From the NCBI RefSeq assembly GCF_016859125.1, contig NZ_CP069338.1, positions 9,737,501 through 9,801,500 on the forward strand: a stretch of 64,000 nucleotides of DNA, read 5' to 3'. Of the stretch, positions 4,803 through 14,873 are shown piece after piece. How positions within the stretch are numbered: position 1 is the stretch's first letter; each line of letters opens with the position of its first letter. The translations under genes were made by a program, and so were the position numbers. The stretch comes from Archangium violaceum. GTDB lineage: Bacteria; Myxococcota; Myxococcia; Myxococcales; Myxococcaceae. The notes under the pieces were generated by a model. The model searched no databases. It was not told where the DNA came from and worked only from the letters and a program-made list of their open reading frames with translations.

Positions 4803-6347
4803 TCACTCCCCGTTCCAGGTGTGCCCGTGGCGCGCGAGCAGGCGGCTGGCCGCCTCCGGGCCCCAGCTCCCGGCGGCGTAGTTCGGCTCGGCGCCGCCCC
4901 TGGACCACTCATCCAGCACGGGCATGACCAGCTCCCAGGCCCGCTCGACCATGTCCTCCCGCGTGTAGAGCGTGGAGACCCCGAGCATGCTGTCCAGCAG
5001 CAGCCGCTCGTAGGCCTCGGGCGGCGGCCCCTCCCGCATGGATTCGTAGAAGTAGCTCATGTCCATGTCGCGCACGCGCACCGCTCGCCCGGGAGCCTTC
5101 ATCGCCACTCGCAACGTGACGCTCTCGCGCGGTTGGATCCGGATGATCAACTGGTTGGCGGACAGCCGCTCCCGCTGCTCGGTGCCGAACAGGTTCCCCC
5201 TGCCCTCCTTGAACTGCACCACCACCTCCGTGACACGCTCCTTCATCCGCTTGCCGGAGCGCACGTAGAAGGGCACGCCGGCCCAGCGCGCGTTGTCGAA
5301 GCGCATGGTGAGCATCGCGTAGGTCTCCACTCCCGAGGTGGGCGAGACGCCCGGCTCCTCGCGGTACCCGCACACGGGCTCGCCAGCGATGAGGCCCGCC
5401 CCGTACTGCCCGCGCACGCACTCGGCGCGGATGCGCTCGGGGGTGAAGGGCCGTGCCGCCTCCAGCACCCGGACCTTCTCGTCACGCACGGCTTCCGGAT
5501 CGAGGCTCGCGGGCGGCTCCATGGCGATCAGCGAGAGCACCTGGAAGGCATGGTTCTGGATCATGTCCCGCATCGCCCCCGACTGCTCGTAGTACCGGCC
5601 CCGCCCCTCGACGCCCAGGGGCTCGGCGCACGTCACCTGGACGTGATCGATGTGCCGGTGGTTCCACAGCGGCTCGAAGATGCCGTTGGCGAACCGGAGC
5701 ACCAGCAGGTTCTGCACCATCTCCTTCCCGAGGTAGTGATCCATCCGGTAGATGCGCTGCTCGTCGAAGTACCGGCGGATGCGGGTGTTGAGCTGCCGCG
5801 CGCTTTCGAGATCCGTGCCGAAGGGTTTCTCGACGACGATGCGTGACCAGCCCTTCGCGTTGGATCGGGACAACCCCGACTCGCCCAGCCGCTCCACCAC
5901 GTCACCGAAGAACGTGGGTGACACCGAGAGATAGAAGAGACGATTGCCCCGCGTCCGGCGCTCCTCTTCCACCTGGCCGAGCAACTCGCCCAGCCGCGCG
6001 TAGTCCCAGGCCGAGGTGATGTCCATCGACATGTAGAACAGCCCCCGGGCGAACGTGTTCCACGCCCTCTCGTCCACCCTGCCGGCCCCGTGGGCCCGCT
6101 CGACGGCGGCGCGCATCCGCGCTCGGAATCCCTCGTGCCCCAACTGGGAGAGAGAGGCCCCGACGAGGGTGAACTCCGCCGGGAGCTGTCCCTCCTGGAA
6201 GAGCCGGAAGAGCGCGGGAACGAGCTTGCGTGCCGCCAGATCACCGGACGCTCCGAAGAGGATCATCGTGCACGGTTCGGGGATCTCCCTGGCGCGCTCG
6301 CCGGCTGCCTCGATCCCATCCCATACCTTCATCGCTGATTGCATCAT
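4803..6347 (-). CDS. zwf: Glucose-6-phosphate 1-dehydrogenase
   Basis: Oxidises glucose-6-phosphate to 6-phosphogluconolactone with NAD(P)+, the entry step of the oxidative pentose phosphate pathway. Seen: the Rossmann motif GASGDLAARKL near residue 28, the substrate signature RMDHYLGKE (family form RIDHYLGKE), EKPFGTD, and a C-terminal domain with MLGVSTLYTREDMVE. The length (about 514 residues) fits the family. Two adjacent ATGs are possible; GGAG lies 3-6 nt upstream of them, and the longer in-frame extension has no ribosome site. It is divergent from the cyclitol cluster, whose cyclase would use sedoheptulose-7-phosphate from the same pathway. Confidence 0.95.
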   Translation of the reverse strand: MMQSAMKVWDGIEAAGERAREIPEPCTMILFGASGDLAARKLVPALFRLFQEGQLPAEFTLVGASLSQLGHEGFRARMRAAVERAHGAGRVDERAWNTFARGLFYMSMDITSAWDYARLGELLGQVEEERRTRGNRLFYLSVSPTFFGDVVERLGESGLSRSNAKGWSRIVVEKPFGTDLESARQLNTRIRRYFDEQRIYRMDHYLGKEMVQNLLVLRFANGIFEPLWNHRHIDHVQVTCAEPLGVEGRGRYYEQSGAMRDMIQNHAFQVLSLIAMEPPASLDPEAVRDEKVRVLEAARPFTPERIRAECVRGQYGAGLIAGEPVCGYREEPGVSPTSGVETYAMLTMRFDNARWAGVPFYVRSGKRMKERVTEVVVQFKEGRGNLFGTEQRERLSANQLIIRIQPRESVTLRVAMKAPGRAVRVRDMDMSYFYESMREGPPPEAYERLLLDSMLGVSTLYTREDMVERAWELVMPVLDEWSRGGAEPNYAAGSWGPEAASRLLARHGHTWNGE

Positions 6348-6496
6348 CCGCTCCAAGTCTGGCTCCTTGGCACTTGCCTGACGGTTGGATGGAGCCTGTG
6401 AAGCTTGTGACCCCGCGAGGATGAAGGTCACGCGGGACTCACAAACGCAGCGCCCGGACTCCTCCTGTGCAGACCCAATCCCTCACAGGAGAGATC

Positions 6497-8218
6497 ATGG
6501 AGCGGAACGGCAAGGGCGGCCTCGGATTGCTCGTCCACCAGGTGCGCAGTGGCGAACTGGACCGGGAGGGTTTCCTCCTGGCCGCGGGGCAGGCGGGCGT
6601 CCCAGCCGAGCGCGCGGCGGCACTGGCGGACGAGGCCCTGGCCGCCTGGGAGAACCAGCGCCGGCTGCGAGAGAACCCTCGCGAGGCCCATGACTTCATC
6701 GTCATTGGCGCGGGCTCGGCCGGGTGCGTGCTGGCCGCCCGGCTGTCCGAGGACCCGGCCAATCAGGTGCTGGTGCTCGAGGCGGGAGGCCCCGGCACGC
6801 ATCCGGACGTGTTCATCCCGTCGCGCTGGAAGCAATTGCTCGGCACCGAGCTGGACTGGAACTACCAGACGGTGCCCCAGCGGCATGCCGCGGATCGGAT
6901 CGTCCCCTGTCCTCGCGGCAAGATGCTCGGAGGCTGCGCCAGCAACAACGCCAGTGTCTGGGCGCGGGGCCACCGCCTGGACTTCGACGGCTGGGCCGCC
7001 CAGGGCAATCCCGGCTGGGATGACGAGACGGTCCGCCGCGTCTTCAAGGACCTGGAGGACTACTCCGGTGGCGAGGACGAGTACCGGGGCGTGGGTGGCC
7101 CGCTGCGCATCTCCCGCGCGGTGGATCCGCATCCTCTCGCCCGGGCCTTCATGGAGGCTGCCCAGCTGGCGGGGTTCCCGACGACGCGCGACTACAATGG
7201 CGAGCGGATGGAGGGCGCGGGTTTCTTCGACCTGAGTGTCGCCGACGGCGAGCGCTTCAGCGTGGCCCGGGCCCTGCTCTTTCCGGCCATGCGCCGGCCC
7301 AACCTGACGGTGCTCACCCACGCCGAGGTGACGCGGCTGATCTTCGAGGGCCGCCGGTGTACGGGCGTGGAGTTCCGTCATGGCGGCCAGGTGCGCCGGG
7401 TGCGCGCCCTGCGCGAGGTGGTGCTGTCGGCCGGTGCCATCAACTCCCCGAAGATGCTGATGCAGTCCGGGGTGGGGCCGGCGGACGAGCTCCGCGCCCT
7501 GGGCATCCCCGTAGTGCACGCCCTGCCGGGCGTGGGCCAGGAGCTGCAGGATCACATCCTGGTGGCGGGCATCAATTACGAGAGCCGCATTCCCCTGCCA
7601 CCGCCTCGGGGCAATGGCGCCGAGGCGACCTTGTGGTGGAGGTCCCAGCCGGGGCTCTCCCGCCCCGACATCCAACCCATCCTCCACCAGTTCCCCGTCG
7701 TCACCGACGAACTGGGCCCCCTGCCCGACAACGGCTACTCCATCATCCCCGGCCTGGTCCGTCCCGCTTCCCGGGGCCGCATGCGGCTGGCTTCCGCGGA
7801 CCCCTCCGCTCCGCCAGTCCTCGACATGAACTACCTGGGCCACGAGGCGGACGTCGAGGCGCTGCGGGTCGCCGTCGAGCTGTCCCGGGAGCTGGGTGCT
7901 TCGCGCGCCTTCGACCGCTTCCGCAAGCGTGAGCTCATGCCCGGACCGCTCGGCCGCGCCGGGATGGTGGAGTGGATCCGCAAGGCGACCACCTGCTTCT
8001 TCCACCCCACCAGCACCTGTCGCATGGGCGTGGACGAGCGCTCGGTGGTGGACCCGCGGTTGCGCGTCCATGGCCTCGAGGGCCTGCGCGTGGCGGACGC
8101 GTCGATCATGCCGGAGATCACCTCCGGCCCCACCAATGCCCCCACCATCATGATTGGGGAGCAGGCCTCGCGCTTCATCCTCTCTCGGACCGATGCCGGG
8201 AGGAACAGGAATGGCTGA
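6497..8218 (+). CDS. GMC-family FAD oxidoreductase (choline-dehydrogenase-like)
   Basis: 573 residues. A helical extension of about 60 residues precedes the FAD-binding motif VIGAGSAGCVLAARL. The GMC signatures follow: GGCASNNASVWARG, SAGAINSPKMLMQSGVGP and the C-terminal catalytic segment HPTSTCRMG...GLRVADASIMP...NAPTIMIGEQAS with the active-site His/Asn pair. GMC enzymes oxidise alcohols, here probably a cyclitol hydroxyl. AGGAG sits 5 nt before the chosen ATG. It overlaps the next gene by 8 nt and opens the coupled gene set. The N-terminal helical extension is unusual for the family. Confidence 0.85.
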   Translation: MERNGKGGLGLLVHQVRSGELDREGFLLAAGQAGVPAERAAALADEALAAWENQRRLRENPREAHDFIVIGAGSAGCVLAARLSEDPANQVLVLEAGGPGTHPDVFIPSRWKQLLGTELDWNYQTVPQRHAADRIVPCPRGKMLGGCASNNASVWARGHRLDFDGWAAQGNPGWDDETVRRVFKDLEDYSGGEDEYRGVGGPLRISRAVDPHPLARAFMEAAQLAGFPTTRDYNGERMEGAGFFDLSVADGERFSVARALLFPAMRRPNLTVLTHAEVTRLIFEGRRCTGVEFRHGGQVRRVRALREVVLSAGAINSPKMLMQSGVGPADELRALGIPVVHALPGVGQELQDHILVAGINYESRIPLPPPRGNGAEATLWWRSQPGLSRPDIQPILHQFPVVTDELGPLPDNGYSIIPGLVRPASRGRMRLASADPSAPPVLDMNYLGHEADVEALRVAVELSRELGASRAFDRFRKRELMPGPLGRAGMVEWIRKATTCFFHPTSTCRMGVDERSVVDPRLRVHGLEGLRVADASIMPEITSGPTNAPTIMIGEQASRFILSRTDAGRNRNG

Positions 8219-9089
8219 GACGACTTCGCAGGGTCCCCGGATCCAGGGGGCCCTGATGATGCCCTTCTCCAACGTGCGACACCTGTCGTACGCCGAGCAG
8301 TTGGAGGCCACTCGTCTTGCCGGCTTCGGCCAGCTGTCGATGCACCCCCACCAGGCTCGAGCCGAGCTCGAGCGCCGGACGGCGGAGGAGATGCTCAAGA
8401 TGGCCGCCGACGCCGGCGTCGAGCTCACCCGGCTCGACCCGCTCAGCAACTGGAACCCGCTGTGGCTGCCCACGAACATGGATGCGCAGTACGTGCGGGA
8501 CTTCGACATCCCGGCCTCGCAGTTCTTCGAGCTCTGCGAGGCGCTGCAGATCCGTTATGCGAGCGTGAACGCCACCTTCGCCGCGGGCGTGTATACCCAC
8601 GACGAGGTGGTCGAGCACTTCGCTGCGGCGGCCCGACGCGCTGCGGAGAGCGGTGTCATCCTCGATCTGGAGAATATACCCTTGTGGGGTGTGCGAACGG
8701 TCCGTGACGCCTGGTCGATCGTCGCCGACTCCGGGGATGCCGACGCGGGCATCGTCTTCGACACGCTTCACTATGTCCGCAGCGGCTCGACGCCCGAGAT
8801 GCTTCGCGAGGTTCCCGGTGAGCGCATCCACGTCGTCCAGCTCAACGACGGCCCGCTGTCACTGCCGCCCGGCGTGACGTTGGAGACCAACTGCTTCGAG
8901 CGCGACTGGCCGGGCGAGGGCGAGTTCCCGCTGGTCGAACTCTTGCAGATCCTTGCCGAGAAGGACGCGCTGAGGCAGGTCAACCCGGAGGTCTTCTCTC
9001 CGACGAACGACGGTCGGTCGCCCGCGGAGATCGCGCGGCTCTCTCGCGAATCGCTCCAGCGGACACTCGCCGATGCCGGTGTCGCCTGA
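8211..9089 (+). CDS. Sugar-phosphate isomerase/epimerase-type TIM-barrel protein
   Basis: 292 residues of the AP-endonuclease-2-like TIM-barrel family (Hyi/IolE/xylose-isomerase-like). Candidate metal ligands are the Glu of DLENIP, Asp/His of FDTLHY, the Asp of VQLNDG and the Glu of NPEVFS. The start overlaps the GMC stop by 8 nt and has GGGAGG 7 nt upstream, so translation is probably coupled. Family members isomerise or epimerise sugars and inosose intermediates, or dehydrate them. Here the substrate is likely a keto-cyclitol made by the cyclase nearby, by context only. Confidence 0.75.
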   Translation: MAETTSQGPRIQGALMMPFSNVRHLSYAEQLEATRLAGFGQLSMHPHQARAELERRTAEEMLKMAADAGVELTRLDPLSNWNPLWLPTNMDAQYVRDFDIPASQFFELCEALQIRYASVNATFAAGVYTHDEVVEHFAAAARRAAESGVILDLENIPLWGVRTVRDAWSIVADSGDADAGIVFDTLHYVRSGSTPEMLREVPGERIHVVQLNDGPLSLPPGVTLETNCFERDWPGEGEFPLVELLQILAEKDALRQVNPEVFSPTNDGRSPAEIARLSRESLQRTLADAGVA

Positions 9090-9224
9090 CGACGGCTCCC
9101 GTCCACCACGTCTTCTCGTCCCGTCTCCAGCTGGAGCGCAGGACCGGCACGCTCGTCGCCCGCGGCCGGCGCGCAGCTCCCCCAAGCGGGGGTAGAGCCG
9201 AAGCCGCAAGAGGCGAGCCCCGTC

Positions 9225-9278
9225 GAGCTGAGCCGGGAGCAGGCATCGCGCTTCATCCTCGCGACGTGTCAGGGCTGA
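9225..9278 (+). pseudogene. 3'-end remnant of a second GMC oxidoreductase
   Basis: The reading EQASRFILATCQG-stop matches the C-terminus of the intact GMC enzyme (EQASRFILSRT). At DNA level 25 of 26 bases are identical between 9235-9260 and 8157-8182. Upstream, between 9090 and 9230, I see no further recognisable coding segment. This 253-bp gap between the TIM-barrel and cyclase genes therefore holds the scar of a lost paralogue, or of a duplication/deletion around the TIM-barrel gene. Confidence 0.6.
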
Positions 9279-9342
9279 CCGTCACATCCGCGTCCCGCGC
9301 CATCAGACAGACCAGTACACGGAAACAATAGGAGACGAGATC

Positions 9343-10527
9343 TTGAATCAAGACATGTCGCGGACCTGGATCGTCAGTGCGGCCCTGCCCGTCCACTATC
9401 AGGTGCGGGTGGTCGACGGCCTGCTCGACCCCAACAACCGGGCGCTGCTGGAGGCGGGCGCCACCCAACGGTCCGGCCCCCTCCGCAGACTCGTGGTGAT
9501 CGACGCGCTCGTGGACCGCCTCTACGGGGTCCAGCTCCGTCACTACCTCCATCACCACGGCGTGAAGTACCAGATCGTCACGCTGCCCATCTCCGAGACG
9601 GACAAGACCATGGAGTCGGTCTTCGCCGTGGTGAAGGGCATCAACGAGTTCGGCCTCTCGCGCCGCCACGAGCCCATCATCGCCATCGGCGGCGGAGTGC
9701 TCATGGACATCGTCGGGCTCGCCGCGAGCCTCTACCGCCGCAGCACGCCGTATGTGCGGGTCCCCACCACGCTGATCGGCCTCGTGGACGCCGGCGTGGG
9801 CGCGAAGACGGGGGTCAACCACTCCTCGCACAAGAACCGGCTCGGGACGTACTTCCCCGCCAAGGACACGCTGCTCGATCGCAGCTTCCTGCGGACACTG
9901 GACACCCGGCACATCGTCAACGGCCTGGCGGAGATCCTGAAGATCGCCCTCATCAAGGATCGGACCCTGTTCGAGCTGCTCGAGCGCCACGGCACCACGC
10001 TCATCGAGGAGCGCTTCCAGGGAAGGACTCCCGAGAGCGATCGGGCGGCGACGCAGGTCATCGATCGCGCCATCACCGGGATGCTCGAGGAACTGGAGCT
10101 GAACCTGTGGGAGCACAAGCTGGAGCGGGTGGTCGACTACGGCCACACCTTCAGCCCCACCGTGGAGATGTTGGCGCTGCCGGAGCTGCTGCACGGCGAG
10201 GCGGTGAACATCGACATGGCGCTGACCACGATCCTCTCCGTGCAGCGCGGGCTCATCAGCATCGAGGAGCGGGATCGCATCTTCGCGCTCATGCGCAAGC
10301 TGGAGCTCCCCGTGTACCACCGGCTCTGCGAGCCCTCGGTGCTGGAGGAGGCCCTGGCCGACACGGTCCGTCACCGCGACGGGCTCCAGCGGCTGCCGCT
10401 CGCCATCGGCATCGGCTCGGCGTGCTTCGTCAACGACGTCCAACCGTCCGAGCTGCGCGAGGCGATCTCCACCCTGCGGGAGATGGACTCCGACTCGCAG
10501 CTCACGCTGGAGGCCGCCCATGCGTGA
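9343..10527 (+). CDS. Sugar-phosphate cyclase, 2-epi-5-epi-valiolone synthase type
   Basis: A 394-residue dehydroquinate-synthase-superfamily enzyme. Seen: the NAD-binding GGGVLMDIVG (about 115-124), RVPTTLIGLVDAGVGAKTGV, a HKNRLGTYFP segment, NGLAEILKIALIKD, VVDYGHTFSP and ELLHGEAVN. The YRRSTPYVRVPTT and HKNRLGTY forms fit the EEVS/DDGS branch rather than true DHQ synthases. EEVS cyclises sedoheptulose-7-phosphate to 2-epi-5-epi-valiolone with NAD+ and a divalent metal. The start is taken as TTG because AGGAG lies 8 nt before it; the ATG 12 nt later is too far from the site. EEVS versus desmethyl-4-deoxygadusol synthase cannot be settled by eye. Confidence 0.85.
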   Translation: MNQDMSRTWIVSAALPVHYQVRVVDGLLDPNNRALLEAGATQRSGPLRRLVVIDALVDRLYGVQLRHYLHHHGVKYQIVTLPISETDKTMESVFAVVKGINEFGLSRRHEPIIAIGGGVLMDIVGLAASLYRRSTPYVRVPTTLIGLVDAGVGAKTGVNHSSHKNRLGTYFPAKDTLLDRSFLRTLDTRHIVNGLAEILKIALIKDRTLFELLERHGTTLIEERFQGRTPESDRAATQVIDRAITGMLEELELNLWEHKLERVVDYGHTFSPTVEMLALPELLHGEAVNIDMALTTILSVQRGLISIEERDRIFALMRKLELPVYHRLCEPSVLEEALADTVRHRDGLQRLPLAIGIGSACFVNDVQPSELREAISTLREMDSDSQLTLEAAHA

Positions 10528-11275
10528 GGGGCTGATCATCGGAGATCTCGAGGATCCCTCCGTGGTGTACGGCGTGCACGGCACCAGGGGGCTCTCCCAG
10601 TGGAAGTGCCTGGCGCGGCGGGCCGGATTGTTCGGCGCGTGGGAGGCCGTCGAGTGGGCCTGGATTCCCCCGGGCGGCGTCAGCGGGGAGCACGTGCACA
10701 CCCGCACCGAGGAGATCTACTTCATCCTCTCCGGCCGCGGAGAGATGACGCTCGACGGCAAGCGGCACCCGGTGGGCCCGGGCAACCTCATCCTGACGGG
10801 ACTCGGGACCACGCACGGCCTGCGCAACGTCGGAGACGAGGGCCTGGGCTGGCTGGTGATCGAAGTGATGAGCCCGGCCACCGCGGCGGCGTTGCGCGGC
10901 TCGGGCTCCCCGGATGTCCCCAGCAGAACCCAAACCCAACGAGGAGGAAGCGACGTGCCGAACGCCGTGGTTCTCAACCTGCGACAGACCTACGAAGTCA
11001 ATCCACGCACCGTCTTCACCGGCCCCCTGCGCAGCATCCGCCTGGTGGACCTGAAGCCCGGACAGCGGGCGGAGCTGTCCGCGGAGGGCGAGGAGCATAC
11101 CCTGTTCGCGCTCCGCGGCTCCGGGGAGATCTCCTCGGGAGGGGCGACCGTGCCCCTGAAGTACGGCGTCTCCGTCACGCTTCCCCTGGGGACCGGTATG
11201 TCCGTCACCGCCGGGGAGGACGGACTGGAGTACTTCCTGGCGAGCCTCGAAGTGCCGGGAGGTGGAGCGCGATGA
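10520..11275 (+). CDS. Two-domain cupin protein (cyclitol cluster)
   Basis: 251 residues. The N-terminal cupin has a complete metal site (GEHVHTRTEEIYFILSG, then GTTHGLRN). The C-terminal half (about 146-245) is beta-rich and cupin-like but lacks the His/Glu ligands. The two are joined by a polar linker of about 25 residues. Its start overlaps the cyclase stop by 8 nt. An in-frame GTG at 10955, preceded by a strong AGGAGG, lies inside the linker, so the second half may also be made separately. Cupins include isomerases, epimerases and dioxygenases; the reaction here is unknown. Confidence 0.8.
   Translation: MREGLIIGDLEDPSVVYGVHGTRGLSQWKCLARRAGLFGAWEAVEWAWIPPGGVSGEHVHTRTEEIYFILSGRGEMTLDGKRHPVGPGNLILTGLGTTHGLRNVGDEGLGWLVIEVMSPATAAALRGSGSPDVPSRTQTQRGGSDVPNAVVLNLRQTYEVNPRTVFTGPLRSIRLVDLKPGQRAELSAEGEEHTLFALRGSGEISSGGATVPLKYGVSVTLPLGTGMSVTAGEDGLEYFLASLEVPGGGAR
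10942..10957 (+). promoter_or_regulatory. Internal ribosome-binding site and in-frame GTG inside the two-domain cupin gene
   Basis: AGGAGG (10942-10947), 7 nt, then GTG (10955-10957) in the same frame as the surrounding cupin gene, exactly at the domain boundary. This is as strong a ribosome site as any at the true starts in this cluster. It suggests either a once-separate second cupin gene whose upstream stop was lost, or deliberate dual translation of the full and C-terminal products. Confidence 0.5.
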
Positions 11276-11655
11276 TCATCTCCACCATCGACAGGACCTC
11301 CAGCACGCGCGAGCGCGGCGAGGAGATCCGATGGCGCTCGTTGGCACGGCGCGGGATGTTGCATTCCGAGTGCGAGTCCTTCGATTACGTGCGGCTCGCG
11401 CCGGGCACCGAGTTCGCGCTCCGAGGCCGAGAGGGTACCGAGAGCGCGTGGTTCGCCCTCGCCGGCACGGGGCAGCTCCTGGACTCGAACCCGGAGTTCA
11501 AGGGGCGCCCCATCGTGACGGGAGACCTGGTGCTCCTGCCCGCCGGCTCGGAGATGCGCCTCGCCAGTGGGGCCAACGGGTTGGAGCTGCTCTGGCTCGA
11601 GGTGATGCCCCGCGCCATTTCCCAATCCCTTCCCCTGAGGAGACCCGTGGCATGA
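11272..11655 (+). CDS. Small single-domain cupin-like protein
   Basis: 127 residues with the beta-sandwich rhythm of a cupin (LAPGTEFALRGREGTESAWFALAGTGQLL ... VTGDLVLLPAGSEMRLAS). The usual two-His/Glu motif and second His are missing, so no normal metal site is visible. The ATG overlaps the preceding stop as ATGA, indicating translational coupling. It may be a structural partner of the neighbouring cupins or a metal-free binding protein. Function is unknown. Confidence 0.75.
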   Translation: MIISTIDRTSSTRERGEEIRWRSLARRGMLHSECESFDYVRLAPGTEFALRGREGTESAWFALAGTGQLLDSNPEFKGRPIVTGDLVLLPAGSEMRLASGANGLELLWLEVMPRAISQSLPLRRPVA

Positions 11656-12716
11656 GTACGATTCAACCAAGCACCTGGCCGGAAGGCACGATGAGCGCGG
11701 TGGCCATCACGGCGCCGGGGCGTGTCGAGCTCACGCGGATTCCAATCCCCGGACCCCGGCCGGACGAAGTGCTGATCCGCCCCGCGTATGTCGGGCTGTG
11801 CGGCACGGATCTGGAGCTGCTGCACGGCAAGGCCTCGTACCTGCAGGACGGCAGGGCCCACTTCCCGCTGGTGTTCGGCCACGAGTGGTGCGGCCGGGTG
11901 GTCGCCGTGGGCGAGGACGTGAAGGGGATCTCCGTGAGCAACCGCGTGGTGGGCCAGACCATGGTTCCCTGCGGGCTGTGCCGGATGTGCCAGCGCGGCC
12001 AGCGGCAACACTGCGAGCGGCTGGTGGAGGTCGGCCTCTACGGACTGCAGGGCGCCGCGGCCGAGTACATCCGCATGCCCATGCGCTCGCTCACCGTGTT
12101 GCCGGACGCCCTCTCCGACCTGAGCGCCGCGTTCATCGAGCCGGCGGTCACCGTGGTGGGCGGCTTCGACAAGGCCGGCTGCGGACTGGAGGACGAGGTC
12201 GCGGTGGTGGGCACCGGAACGATCGGTCTGCTCGCCGTGCAGCTCGCCTCGCGGATGGCGCGGAGCGTGGATGCGATCGGCATCGACGAGGCGGGGCTGA
12301 AGCTGGCCGCCGCCTGCGGGGCCCGGCGCACGCTGCGGCCGGATCAAGCCCGGAACGGCTCGTACTCGCTGGTCATCGAGGCCTCCGGTTCCTCGCGAGC
12401 GTTCATGCGGAGCATCGAGCTCACCGAGACCGGTGGTCGGGTCGCGGTGGTCGGCGTGGCGAACGATCCAGTGGCCGGTTTCGCTCCCGGAGAGCTCGTC
12501 CTGCGAGGGATCGATCTCCTCGGCATCCGGCATGGCCTGGACTACTACGACCGGACGATCCAGCTCTTCGTCGACGGCGTGCTGGACGCGAAGCCGCTGA
12601 TCGCCGGAGTGCTTCCTCCGGAGCAGGCCGGACACGCCTTCGAGCTGCTCGCGCACGGCCGCTCGGGTCCCCCCAAGGTGCTGCTGAACTTCAACGACGA
12701 TCGGAGGGAGTCATGA
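11652..12716 (+). CDS. Zinc-dependent alcohol/polyol dehydrogenase (MDR family)
   Basis: 354 residues. The catalytic zinc ligands are in GLCGTD and GHEWCG. The structural zinc has four cysteines (CGLCRMCQRGQRQHC). The NAD-binding motif is VGTGTIGLLAVQLA, followed by a C-terminal MDR domain. It resembles sorbitol/threonine dehydrogenase-type members that act on polyols. The start is coupled to the upstream cupin (ATG overlapping TGA). In the cluster it probably interconverts a hydroxyl and ketone on the cyclitol ring; the substrate is not known. Confidence 0.85.
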   Translation: MSTIQPSTWPEGTMSAVAITAPGRVELTRIPIPGPRPDEVLIRPAYVGLCGTDLELLHGKASYLQDGRAHFPLVFGHEWCGRVVAVGEDVKGISVSNRVVGQTMVPCGLCRMCQRGQRQHCERLVEVGLYGLQGAAAEYIRMPMRSLTVLPDALSDLSAAFIEPAVTVVGGFDKAGCGLEDEVAVVGTGTIGLLAVQLASRMARSVDAIGIDEAGLKLAAACGARRTLRPDQARNGSYSLVIEASGSSRAFMRSIELTETGGRVAVVGVANDPVAGFAPGELVLRGIDLLGIRHGLDYYDRTIQLFVDGVLDAKPLIAGVLPPEQAGHAFELLAHGRSGPPKVLLNFNDDRRES

Positions 12717-13492
12717 TCCGGCGAACCGTCGCGGCCTGGGACGAGTCCGCGCGGACGCGGACCGCGGGCGTGCAGTGGCTGGTCAACCGGGAGCTCATCC
12801 CGGAGGCGCTCGGGATGCTGATGGTCCAGGAGCTGTCCGGGGGCACCCGGTTGCCGGCGCACAGCCTGCCCGGAGCCGAGTCGGTCACCTTCCTGCTGTC
12901 GGGCAAGGGGGACTGGCTCACGGAAGGCGGGGGCACCTGGCAGCTGACTCCCGGAGAGGGTGTGTTCAACCCACCGGGGACCCGCCGGTCCTTCGAGACA
13001 GAGAAGGACCGGAACGCGGTGCTCCTGGTTGTGTACGGGGGCACCAACGATCCCCGGGACGCGTTGCCCCACGCGGTGAACGGCGGCGGGTGTGGCTGCC
13101 GCATCTCCCGGATGGCGGACCACGGCAAGCACAGCCCCCTGGGCGAGGCCGGTGGCTTCATCGACATGGGCGTGCACTGGCTGGCGACCTCGCAGACGGT
13201 CGGTACCCGCTCGGTGGTCGTGGCCACCTCGACCTTCACCCCGGGAGGCAGCCACCAGCTCCACCGGCACCCGAATGCCGATGAGTTCTTCCTGGTGCTG
13301 CAAGGGGGCGGACAACACCTCACGAAGGACGGCCCGGTGCGGTTGAACCCGGGCGACCTGGCCTACATCCCGGCCGGCGAATGGCACGGGTTCCAGACCG
13401 ATCCCGGCGTCACCACCCGGACCGTCTACGGCTACCTGGGCGCGGGGAGCCTCGCCCAGGCCGGCTACGAACTGTTGGAGGAAGAGACATGA
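12713..13492 (+). CDS. Bicupin protein
   Basis: 259 residues with two cupin domains. The first (about 30-110) keeps only one likely ligand (AHSLPGAESVTFLLSG). The second (about 165-245) has a full 3-His/1-Glu set (HQLHRHPNADEFFLVLQGGG ... PAGEWHGF). A Cys/Gly-rich link (GGGCGCR) connects them. GGAGGGAG precedes the ATG, which overlaps the dehydrogenase stop by 4 nt. The domain order of intact versus degenerate sites is opposite to that of the first two-domain cupin in this cluster. Function is unknown. Confidence 0.8.
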   Translation: MIRRTVAAWDESARTRTAGVQWLVNRELIPEALGMLMVQELSGGTRLPAHSLPGAESVTFLLSGKGDWLTEGGGTWQLTPGEGVFNPPGTRRSFETEKDRNAVLLVVYGGTNDPRDALPHAVNGGGCGCRISRMADHGKHSPLGEAGGFIDMGVHWLATSQTVGTRSVVVATSTFTPGGSHQLHRHPNADEFFLVLQGGGQHLTKDGPVRLNPGDLAYIPAGEWHGFQTDPGVTTRTVYGYLGAGSLAQAGYELLEEET

Positions 13493-14271
13493 ACGAGCGT
13501 ATCGCCATCGTGACCGGTGCCAGTTCCGGCATCGGCAAGGCCACCGCCATCGCCCTGGCCGAGAAGGGTTTCGACGTGGGGATCGGCTACAACTCGAACA
13601 CCGAGGGAGCCCGGCAGGTCGCGGCGGAGGTGGAGGCCTACGGGGTGCGCGCCCTGCCCTTCCGCATGGAGCTGACGAATCCACCGGCCGCGGCGGACGC
13701 GGTGGAGCGGGCGATCAGCGAGCTGGGCGGCGTGGACGTCTTCGTGAACAACGCCGGCGTCAACCGACGTGCCTCGTTCCTCGAGGAGACGCCGGAGGAC
13801 TGGCAACGCATCCTCACCATCAACACCACGGGCCCCTTCCTGTGCGCGCAGGTGGCGGCACGCCGCATGGTGGCGCGGGGGCGCGGTGGGCGCATCGTGA
13901 ACGTGACGTCCGTGCACGAGCTGGTGCCCATCCTGGGAGGCTCCTCCTACTGCGCCTCCAAGGGCGCACTGGGCCTGCTCACCAAGGTGATGGCGCTGGA
14001 GCTGGCGAAGTACGGCATCTCCGTCAACGCGATCAGCCCGGGAGAGACGGCCACGCCGATGAACGGAGTCCCCGAGAGCCGTGACGCCGCGGAGATCTCC
14101 CGGCCCGCGATTCCCCTCGGCCGGCCCGGACGCTCCCGCGAGGTCGCGGCGATCATCGCCCACCTGGCGGGACCGGACGCCGCCTACATCACGGGCATCA
14201 CCCTCACCGTCGACGGGGGCCTGCTGTTGATGAGCGCCATCCCCAACCAGGAGTACGCGGGCCGCTCTTGA
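13489..14271 (+). CDS. Short-chain dehydrogenase/reductase
   Basis: A 260-residue classical [11 protein letters not shown] cofactor motif near residue 8, NNAGVN, a catalytic Ser in NVTSVHEL, YCASK (Tyr-x-x-x-Lys) and a C-terminal TVDGGL. It resembles 3-oxoacyl-ACP-reductase/glucose-dehydrogenase-like members acting on sugars and cyclitols. Coupled to the bicupin by an ATGA overlap with GGAGG upstream. Probably a redox step on the cyclitol; the substrate is unproven. Confidence 0.88.
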   Translation: MNERIAIVTGASSGIGKATAIALAEKGFDVGIGYNSNTEGARQVAAEVEAYGVRALPFRMELTNPPAAADAVERAISELGGVDVFVNNAGVNRRASFLEETPEDWQRILTINTTGPFLCAQVAARRMVARGRGGRIVNVTSVHELVPILGGSSYCASKGALGLLTKVMALELAKYGISVNAISPGETATPMNGVPESRDAAEISRPAIPLGRPGRSREVAAIIAHLAGPDAAYITGITLTVDGGLLLMSAIPNQEYAGRS

Positions 14272-14321
14272 TCACATCCAGGCCGCGACGACTCCATTCC
14301 CACACAGGAAAGGAATCCACC

Positions 14322-14873
14322 ATGAGCCGTACCACCAAGGGCATTCCCGGCGCGCGCGCCGTCCACCACGTCGCCGAGACCGTTCCCAACCTCGATCAGG
14401 CGGTCAACTTCTTCGTCAACGTCCTCGGGGCCGAGCTGCTGTACCGGAGCGGTCCCGTCGAGGACAAGACGGGCGACTGGATGACCCGCCACCTCAACGT
14501 GCACCCCCGCGCCTCGACGCACATCGCCATGCTCCGGTTCGGGCCCTCCACCAACCTCGAGCTGTTCGAGTACACCGCGCCCGGCCAGCGGCAGCAGCTC
14601 CCGCGCAACAGCGACTGGGGCGGCCACCACCTGGCGATCGGCGTCGAGAACGTGGATGCCGCGGTCGACTACCTCCGGTCGGTGCCCGGCGTGAAGATCC
14701 TCGGCGAGCCCCAGACCATCACCGAGGGGCCCATCGCCGGAGACCGCTGGGTCTACTTCCTGACCCCGTGGGGCATGCAGATGGAGGTCCTCCACATGCC
14801 CCAGGGCATGCCGTACGAGAAGGACACGGACGCCCGCCTGTTCGATCCGAGCGAGCCCTGGGACTCCCGGTAG
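14322..14873 (+). CDS. VOC-family protein, CetB-like epimerase candidate
   Basis: 183 residues of the vicinal-oxygen-chelate (glyoxalase) fold with two beta-alpha-beta-beta-beta halves. Candidate ligands are His in VHHVAETVPNLDQAVNFF, Glu in LELFEY, His in GGHHLAIGV and Glu in MEVLHMP. NLDQAVNFFVNVLG and WVYFLTPWGMQMEV are typical of the family that includes CetB. CetB is known to epimerise 2-epi-5-epi-valiolone to 5-epi-valiolone in cetoniacytone biosynthesis. With an EEVS-type cyclase five genes upstream, the same step is likely here (inference). AAAGGA lies 8-9 nt before the ATG. Confidence 0.8.
   Translation: MSRTTKGIPGARAVHHVAETVPNLDQAVNFFVNVLGAELLYRSGPVEDKTGDWMTRHLNVHPRASTHIAMLRFGPSTNLELFEYTAPGQRQQLPRNSDWGGHHLAIGVENVDAAVDYLRSVPGVKILGEPQTITEGPIAGDRWVYFLTPWGMQMEVLHMPQGMPYEKDTDARLFDPSEPWDSR

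Follow-up and report, generated by a model that had tools for sequence, protein, structure and literature searches.

A putative kinase-free C7-cyclitol operon with paired cupins in Archangium violaceum and related loci in Streptomyces

The cetoniacytone pathway combines a 2-epi-5-epi-valiolone synthase (EEVS; CetA) with an epimerase of the VOC family (CetB), and to our knowledge the characterised EEVS clusters give aminated or glycosylated products. The acarbose route also starts with an EEVS, which is followed by phosphorylation by AcbM, epimerisation by AcbO and dehydration by AcbL (PMC7081202). For validamycin, a work cited in PMC12041759 names ValD in its title as a VOC epimerase, and 2-epi-5-epi-valiolone is obtained from a strain in which valD was deleted (PMC7081202). 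Here, we analysed a stretch of 64,000 nucleotides (the window) from the 12.68 Mb, single-contig genome of Archangium violaceum (RefSeq assembly GCF_016859125.1, contig NZ_CP069338.1, positions 9,737,501 to 9,801,500). Nine plus-strand genes at positions 6497–14873 of the window encode, in this order, a GMC oxidoreductase, a TIM-barrel protein, an EEVS-type cyclase, two cupin proteins (cup1 and cup2), a zinc-dependent dehydrogenase (ZnDH), a further cupin protein (cup3), a short-chain dehydrogenase/reductase (SDR) and a VOC protein. This set had been claimed in a preliminary description of the window; all nine genes were found there, and the families named were backed by Pfam or NCBIfam. We consider, with a probability of about 0.58, that the product of the operon is a small C7-cyclitol, probably free of nitrogen, which arises by a variant of the EEVS pathway without a kinase. 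The pathway class of the operon is well supported.

The operon resembles the validamycin pathway in having an EEVS-type cyclase and a ValD-type VOC protein predicted to epimerise the free cyclitol, but it lacks a ValC-type kinase, a nucleotidyltransferase, a pseudoglycosyltransferase and an aminotransferase. In addition, its VOC protein has a single domain, whereas the ValD-type protein is a double VOC, and the cupin pair is absent from the two validamycin-type loci in our data (L087 and L095). With the acarbose-type pathway (AcbC, AcbM, AcbO, AcbL, and AcbN) it shares EEVS as the first step. However, the acarbose route phosphorylates first and then epimerises and dehydrates the 7-phosphate, whereas loci of the type found in the window (hereafter, cupin-type loci) have no AcbM-, AcbO- or AcbL-type genes. 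The cetoniacytone pathway likewise pairs an EEVS with a VOC epimerase, but its product is aminated, whereas the window set contains no aminotransferase.

The cyclase gene lies at positions 9343–10527 (start TTG 9343 or ATG 9355; PF01761/PF24621). Its product scored 452 bits against ValA (PDB 4p53), to which it is 58% identical, compared with 279 bits against desmethyl-4-deoxygadusol synthase (DDGS; 5tpr) and 143 bits against 3-dehydroquinate (DHQ) synthase (DHQS; 3okf). Two fingerprint sites are known that distinguish EEVS from DDGS (PMC4426668); these are Asp and His in the window cyclase, as in ValA, whereas DDGS has A/T and DHQS has N/V. The Glu-His-His metal site is complete, again as in ValA. 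In a first tree, the 2-deoxy-scyllo-inosose synthase (DOIS) and aroB outgroups stood on branches of 8–10 changes and DDGS fell inside the group on a long open branch; the final tree was rebuilt without the two worst outgroups. In the tree of 67 sequences, the window cyclase and ValA shared a clade of 30 rows (support 97.6/99), with DDGS and DHQS outside. The scores, the fingerprint and the tree rule out DHQS, DDGS and DOIS as identities of the cyclase. The phylogeny proposed in the preliminary description thus places the enzyme with ValA and not among the DHQ synthases, and together with the fingerprint residues it upholds the original assignment. By family and active site, the cyclase is of the EEVS type, and its predicted activity is the conversion of sedoheptulose 7-phosphate to 2-epi-5-epi-valiolone.

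These results also bear on the idea that the operon belongs to catabolism or primary metabolism, with the cyclase as a paralogue of DHQ synthase. The genes for glucose-6-phosphate dehydrogenase (zwf), GMC proteins and dehydrogenases are known from sugar catabolism, and NCBIfam places the cyclase under 3-dehydroquinate synthase models, below their cut-offs. However, the fingerprint residues and the tree group the cyclase with EEVS, a separate aroB-like gene stands beside a chorismate synthase-like open reading frame (ORF) in the same genome, and the operon is patchily distributed, with two congeners lacking it. We regard a catabolic or primary role as very improbable.

To place the operon among related loci, cyclase homologues with E values of 1e-90 or better were collected and found in 49 of 395 Streptomycetaceae genomes, and the genes in the neighbourhoods of 51 actinobacterial loci were called and clustered. 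A cup1 gene was present in 24 of these 51 loci, nearly all of which also had cup2 and VOC genes, and VOC accompanied cup1 in 28 of the 31 cup1 loci. EEVS-cup1-cup2-VOC is therefore a recurrent module, common in Streptomyces, that defines a family; the earlier impression that the cupin load was peculiar to this locus was not borne out. Three loci (L067, L068, and L074) have the order cyclase-cup1-cup2-...-ZnDH-cup3-SDR-VOC, and their ZnDH, SDR and VOC proteins are 56–75% identical to those in the window. The Streptomyces module loci (L016, L065, L067, L068, L074, and others) share with the window the cyclase clade, the bicupin, the single cupin and the VOC protein, but neither zwf nor the TIM gene is found in them, and their GMC oxidase is different or absent. 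Moreover, many of them carry a degenerate DHQS/DOIS-like second protein, a glycosyltransferase, an acyltransferase, or genes resembling those for 4-hydroxyphenylpyruvate dioxygenase (HPPD) and homogentisate dioxygenase (HgmA). We found no characterised cupin-type EEVS cluster in the searchable open-licence papers, few of which deal with C7-cyclitols. The cupins mark a family and not a singleton, for which we infer a cupin step and a product.

The two kinds of EEVS loci differ in their accompanying enzymes. ROK kinases, counted with a joint profile covering ValC-type ROK proteins, occurred in 23 loci that are not of the cupin type and in none of the 31 cupin-type loci. Likewise, none of the 31 had a DegT aminotransferase, an AcbL-type alcohol dehydrogenase (ADH)/dehydratase, or a TIM epimerase of the AcbO type as judged by position; a glycosyltransferase was present in four. 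For the window set, the reported absence of a kinase, aminotransferase and glycosyltransferase was confirmed. Kinase-type loci combine a ROK kinase resembling AcbM with an ADH resembling AcbL, an SDR and a TIM protein; these families were assigned to the Acb proteins from their positions and domains rather than from aligned sequences. The same gene order is annotated in Agrobacterium vitis, and it fits the acarbose route. Between the two kinds stand the validamycin-type loci L087 and L095, which have VOC and a ValC-type ROK kinase but no cupins. The A. violaceum genome itself contains a second EEVS at 1.93 Mb (C1:1932078-1933181), 52% identical to the window cyclase, in a kinase-type locus (L019, 9522–17672) with a ROK kinase, an ADH, an SDR, a TreT-like glycosyltransferase, a TIM protein, a HAD phosphatase and an NAD-epimerase; this locus probably makes a pseudo-oligosaccharide.

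Within the phylum, a close homologue of the cyclase (81–88% identity) was found in seven of 195 genomes, from two genera, and two sampled congeners had none, so the presence of the operon is patchy. The gene order is repeated in six other Archangium/Cystobacter-type genomes, including those of Archangium lansinium and A. violaceum, at about 70–95% protein identity, and it is therefore beyond chance. This answers the conservation check suggested for Archangium and Cystobacter: the neighbours stay linked. The core shared by the seven myxobacterial loci consists of GMC (7/7), the cyclase, cup1, cup2 and VOC; in six of the seven, zwf lies next to it. ZnDH, cup3 and SDR are all missing from two Cystobacter-type loci (L028 and L029); the “heavily oxidised” product of the preliminary description was a guess, as these two relatives manage without the three genes. 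The seven myxobacterial cyclases are monophyletic (99.9/100) and nested within actinobacterial sequences, which suggests transfer from an actinomycete; the group nearest to them (66/93) comprises S. coacervatus, S. viridochromogenes and a third sequence.

The three cupin genes encode the five cupin domains previously counted (two, one and two in cup1, cup2 and cup3, respectively). Although the count was right, the chemistry implied was overstated: three domains have no metal ligands, and cup2 is marginal in Pfam. Only two domains, the N-terminal one of cup1 and the C-terminal one of cup3, have kept the His/Glu metal-binding set. The bicupin cup1 (10520–11275; Cupin_2 in two stretches) has a degenerate C-terminal domain; in its N-terminal domain, the ligands H58, H60, E65 and H99 do not vary across 25 homologues, which come from two phyla. 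The single cupin cup2 (11272–11655) has no metal ligands in an alignment of 26 homologues, and its sole Pfam match is AraC_binding (E = 0.021); it is fused with VOC as one ORF in four Streptomyces-type loci (L016, L017, L065, and L111). In cup3 (12713–13492), also a bicupin with two Cupin_2 stretches, the C-terminal HRHP...E...H motif is conserved across nine homologues. The loss of metal ligands from three of the five domains, together with the AraC_binding match of cup2, would suit cup1 and cup2 proteins without catalytic activity towards the C7 ring (with binding, chaperone or regulatory roles) and a pathway in which VOC and the oxidoreductases do all the chemistry. We consider this unlikely, because the cup1 metal set is invariant and because the steps left would have no enzyme, as the cupin-type loci lack an AcbL-type dehydratase and an AcbO-type epimerase.

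The structure model of cup1, built from five sequences, is a bicupin with a pLDDT of 76.6. BacB and AerE are natural-product enzymes that isomerise cyclohexadienyl or cyclohexenyl rings, and cup1 has the bicupin fold and the His3-Glu metal site required of such metal-dependent bicupin isomerases. The model matched AerE with Z = 21.3 (root-mean-square deviation [rmsd] 2.5, 197 aligned residues) and BacB with Z = 20.3 (rmsd 3.0, 203 aligned residues). The fold is the same over about 200 residues, but the identity is 16%, and the pathways (bacilysin and aeruginosin) and substrates differ. Dioxygenases also scored high against the model, and the N-terminal cupin weakly matched gentisate 1,2-dioxygenase and quercetinase. 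Such matches, together with the HPPD-, homogentisate dioxygenase- and fumarylacetoacetase (FAH)-like genes adjoining nine Streptomyces cupin-type loci, would fit a reading of cup1 or cup3 as a quercetinase- or gentisate dioxygenase-like oxygenase. Such an enzyme would act on the cyclitol, or on an aromatised product, by oxidation or cleavage, and the pathway would end in a ring-opened acid or a quinone. However, matches of this sort are generic for bicupins, and the myxobacterial loci have no HPPD/HgmA/FAH-like genes; an oxygenase role seems slightly less probable still than non-catalytic cupins.

The VOC gene lies at positions 14322–14873 (PF00903, 3.5e-10). Its product has a 2-His/2-Glu metal site (H16, E80, H103, and E155) that is invariant across 24 homologues, and it is 42–45% identical to each half of the double VOC protein of L087, a locus called validamycin-type from its cyclase (88.6% identical to ValA) and its ValB/ValC-like neighbours. 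The CetB-like epimerase candidate proposed earlier is thus sustained as a ValD-type protein by its complete metal site and this homology, which suggest that it would epimerise C2 of the free cyclitol.

These observations suggest the following pathway. The EEVS-type cyclase would supply 2-epi-5-epi-valiolone, which the VOC protein may epimerise at C2 through a metal-bound enediolate, like ValD. In both 2-epi-5-epi-valiolone and 5-epi-valiolone, a hydroxyl group lies beta to the ketone carbonyl. Metal-assisted enolisation of such a C7 ketone could lead either to epimerisation or to loss of water, giving a valienone-type enone, which is the step that AcbL performs on the phosphate of the acarbose route. 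cup1 and cup2 would act on the same ketone; the metal-bearing domain of cup1 most likely enolises it, and cup1 may then eliminate the C5 hydroxyl to give the enone or shift a tautomer, whereas cup2 would be a partner without a catalytic role that is also in contact with VOC. The ring may then be modified by GMC, and in Archangium by ZnDH, cup3 and SDR as well, into a gabosine-like keto-carbasugar, the oxidation state of which GMC, ZnDH and SDR would set. Since the cupin-type loci have no AcbL-type genes, we tentatively take cup1 as the first candidate for the equivalent dehydration step, at somewhat less than even odds. A broader proposal, which we hold a little more loosely, is that cup1 and cup2 represent an unrecognised class of C7-cyclitol dehydratases or tautomerases that, with the VOC epimerase, replaces AcbM-AcbO-AcbL, forming a second, phosphate-free EEVS trunk. 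Streptomyces would produce gabosine-like keto-carbasugars by this trunk, and myxobacteria would have acquired it by transfer.

Several points weigh against a kinase-free cyclitol pathway. The loci were chosen by similarity to the window cyclase, which biases the counts, and related loci are not independent. The validamycin-type loci combine VOC with a ValC-type ROK kinase, and therefore VOC alone is not proof of a kinase-free route; the VOC model is also of modest confidence. In the fold comparison, AerE and BacB score no better than many bicupins with other functions, so the resemblance of cup1 to these enzymes is a lead only. Finally, TIM, ZnDH, cup3 and SDR are absent from some relatives, and their roles are therefore loose.

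The flanks and the remaining genes help to delimit the operon. A divergent zwf gene (4803–6431, minus strand; TIGR00871, 617 bits) precedes it, one of three in the genome. Homologues with 81–83% identity stand beside the operon in six operon-positive genomes; both operon-negative congeners lack this type, their best zwf being 62–63% identical. Because this close homologue tracks the operon, zwf is likely part of the unit, the cluster should likely be widened to include it, and its reading as a mere neighbour is disfavoured. Its product may raise flux through the pentose phosphates. The region between zwf and GMC showed no sigma-70-like promoter, a result that carries little weight for this organism. 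In a further instance, an EEVS locus on a Streptomyces clavuligerus plasmid (L143) adjoins 6-phosphogluconolactonase and ribulose-phosphate 3-epimerase genes, i.e., genes of pentose phosphate supply.

The GMC protein (6497–8218; PF00732, 2.1e-49; PF05199, 1.6e-35) is choline dehydrogenase/alcohol oxidase-like. The accessory TIM-barrel protein (8211–9089; AP_endonuc_2, PF01261, 8.2e-22; PDB 5hmq) is nearest to the dehydroshikimate dehydratase QuiC (53 bits), and its gene occurs in three of the seven myxobacterial loci. Its best match among the TIM proteins from kinase-type loci had an E value of 0.016, and an identity as an AcbO orthologue was rejected. Compared with the GMC tails of the relatives, the plus-strand gap after it (9090–9342) encodes in frame a leftover GMC C-terminal tail (EQASRFILATCQG*), so the TIM gene looks like a late insertion at the 3′ end of GMC. 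ZnDH (11652–12716; PF08240, 3.1e-26) is a medium-chain dehydrogenase whose closest NCBIfam relatives are threonine and scyllo-inosose dehydrogenases, and SDR (13489–14271) matches PF13561 (1.3e-56) and, above the cut-off, NCBIfam PRK12743. The coupling of the genes, described earlier as mostly by ATGA-type overlaps, holds in that form for four junctions (cup1/cup2, cup2/ZnDH, ZnDH/cup3, and cup3/SDR); GMC/TIM and EEVS/cup1 overlap instead by 8 nt (ATG...TGA), which brings the overlapping junctions to six, and 253 nt separate TIM from EEVS. For VOC, a start at ATG 14322, 50 nt past the SDR stop, is more likely than at TTG 14268. The right edge of the cluster is VOC, since the genes downstream differ among relatives.

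Some related loci showed further features. Eight Streptomyces cupin-type loci (L074:11603-12763, L066, L067, L068, L072, L073, L082, and L096) have the degenerate DHQS/DOIS-like protein near the true EEVS; its glycine-rich and substrate motifs look lost, and it may be a pseudo-cyclase. The divergent HPPD-, homogentisate dioxygenase- (cupin) and fumarylacetoacetase-like genes lie to the left of EEVS in L066, L067, L068, L071, L074, L077, L079, L083 and L096, reflecting either a shared location or a link to aromatic metabolism. Two Myxococcaceae genomes (L022 and L023) have an EEVS-like cyclase with the EEVS fingerprint on a deep branch, together with PhyH dioxygenase and GH4-like genes. Loci L024 and L025, from another family of the same order, have a 38–42% identical EEVS-like cyclase followed by a single-domain cupin (41–44% to cup1), and GH4, MocA-type oxidoreductase, DegT aminotransferase and NUDIX genes are also present; we read this as an older EEVS-cupin association.

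If the proposed pathway is true, a large share of the Streptomyces EEVS loci and the myxobacterial operon would belong to a separate trunk that includes a new enzymatic step. In that case, these loci could also be the genetic source of the nitrogen-free keto-carbasugars reported from Streptomyces. The two trunks would then contrast within one superfamily and one genome, so that the cupin step lends itself to a direct in vitro test with an accessible substrate.

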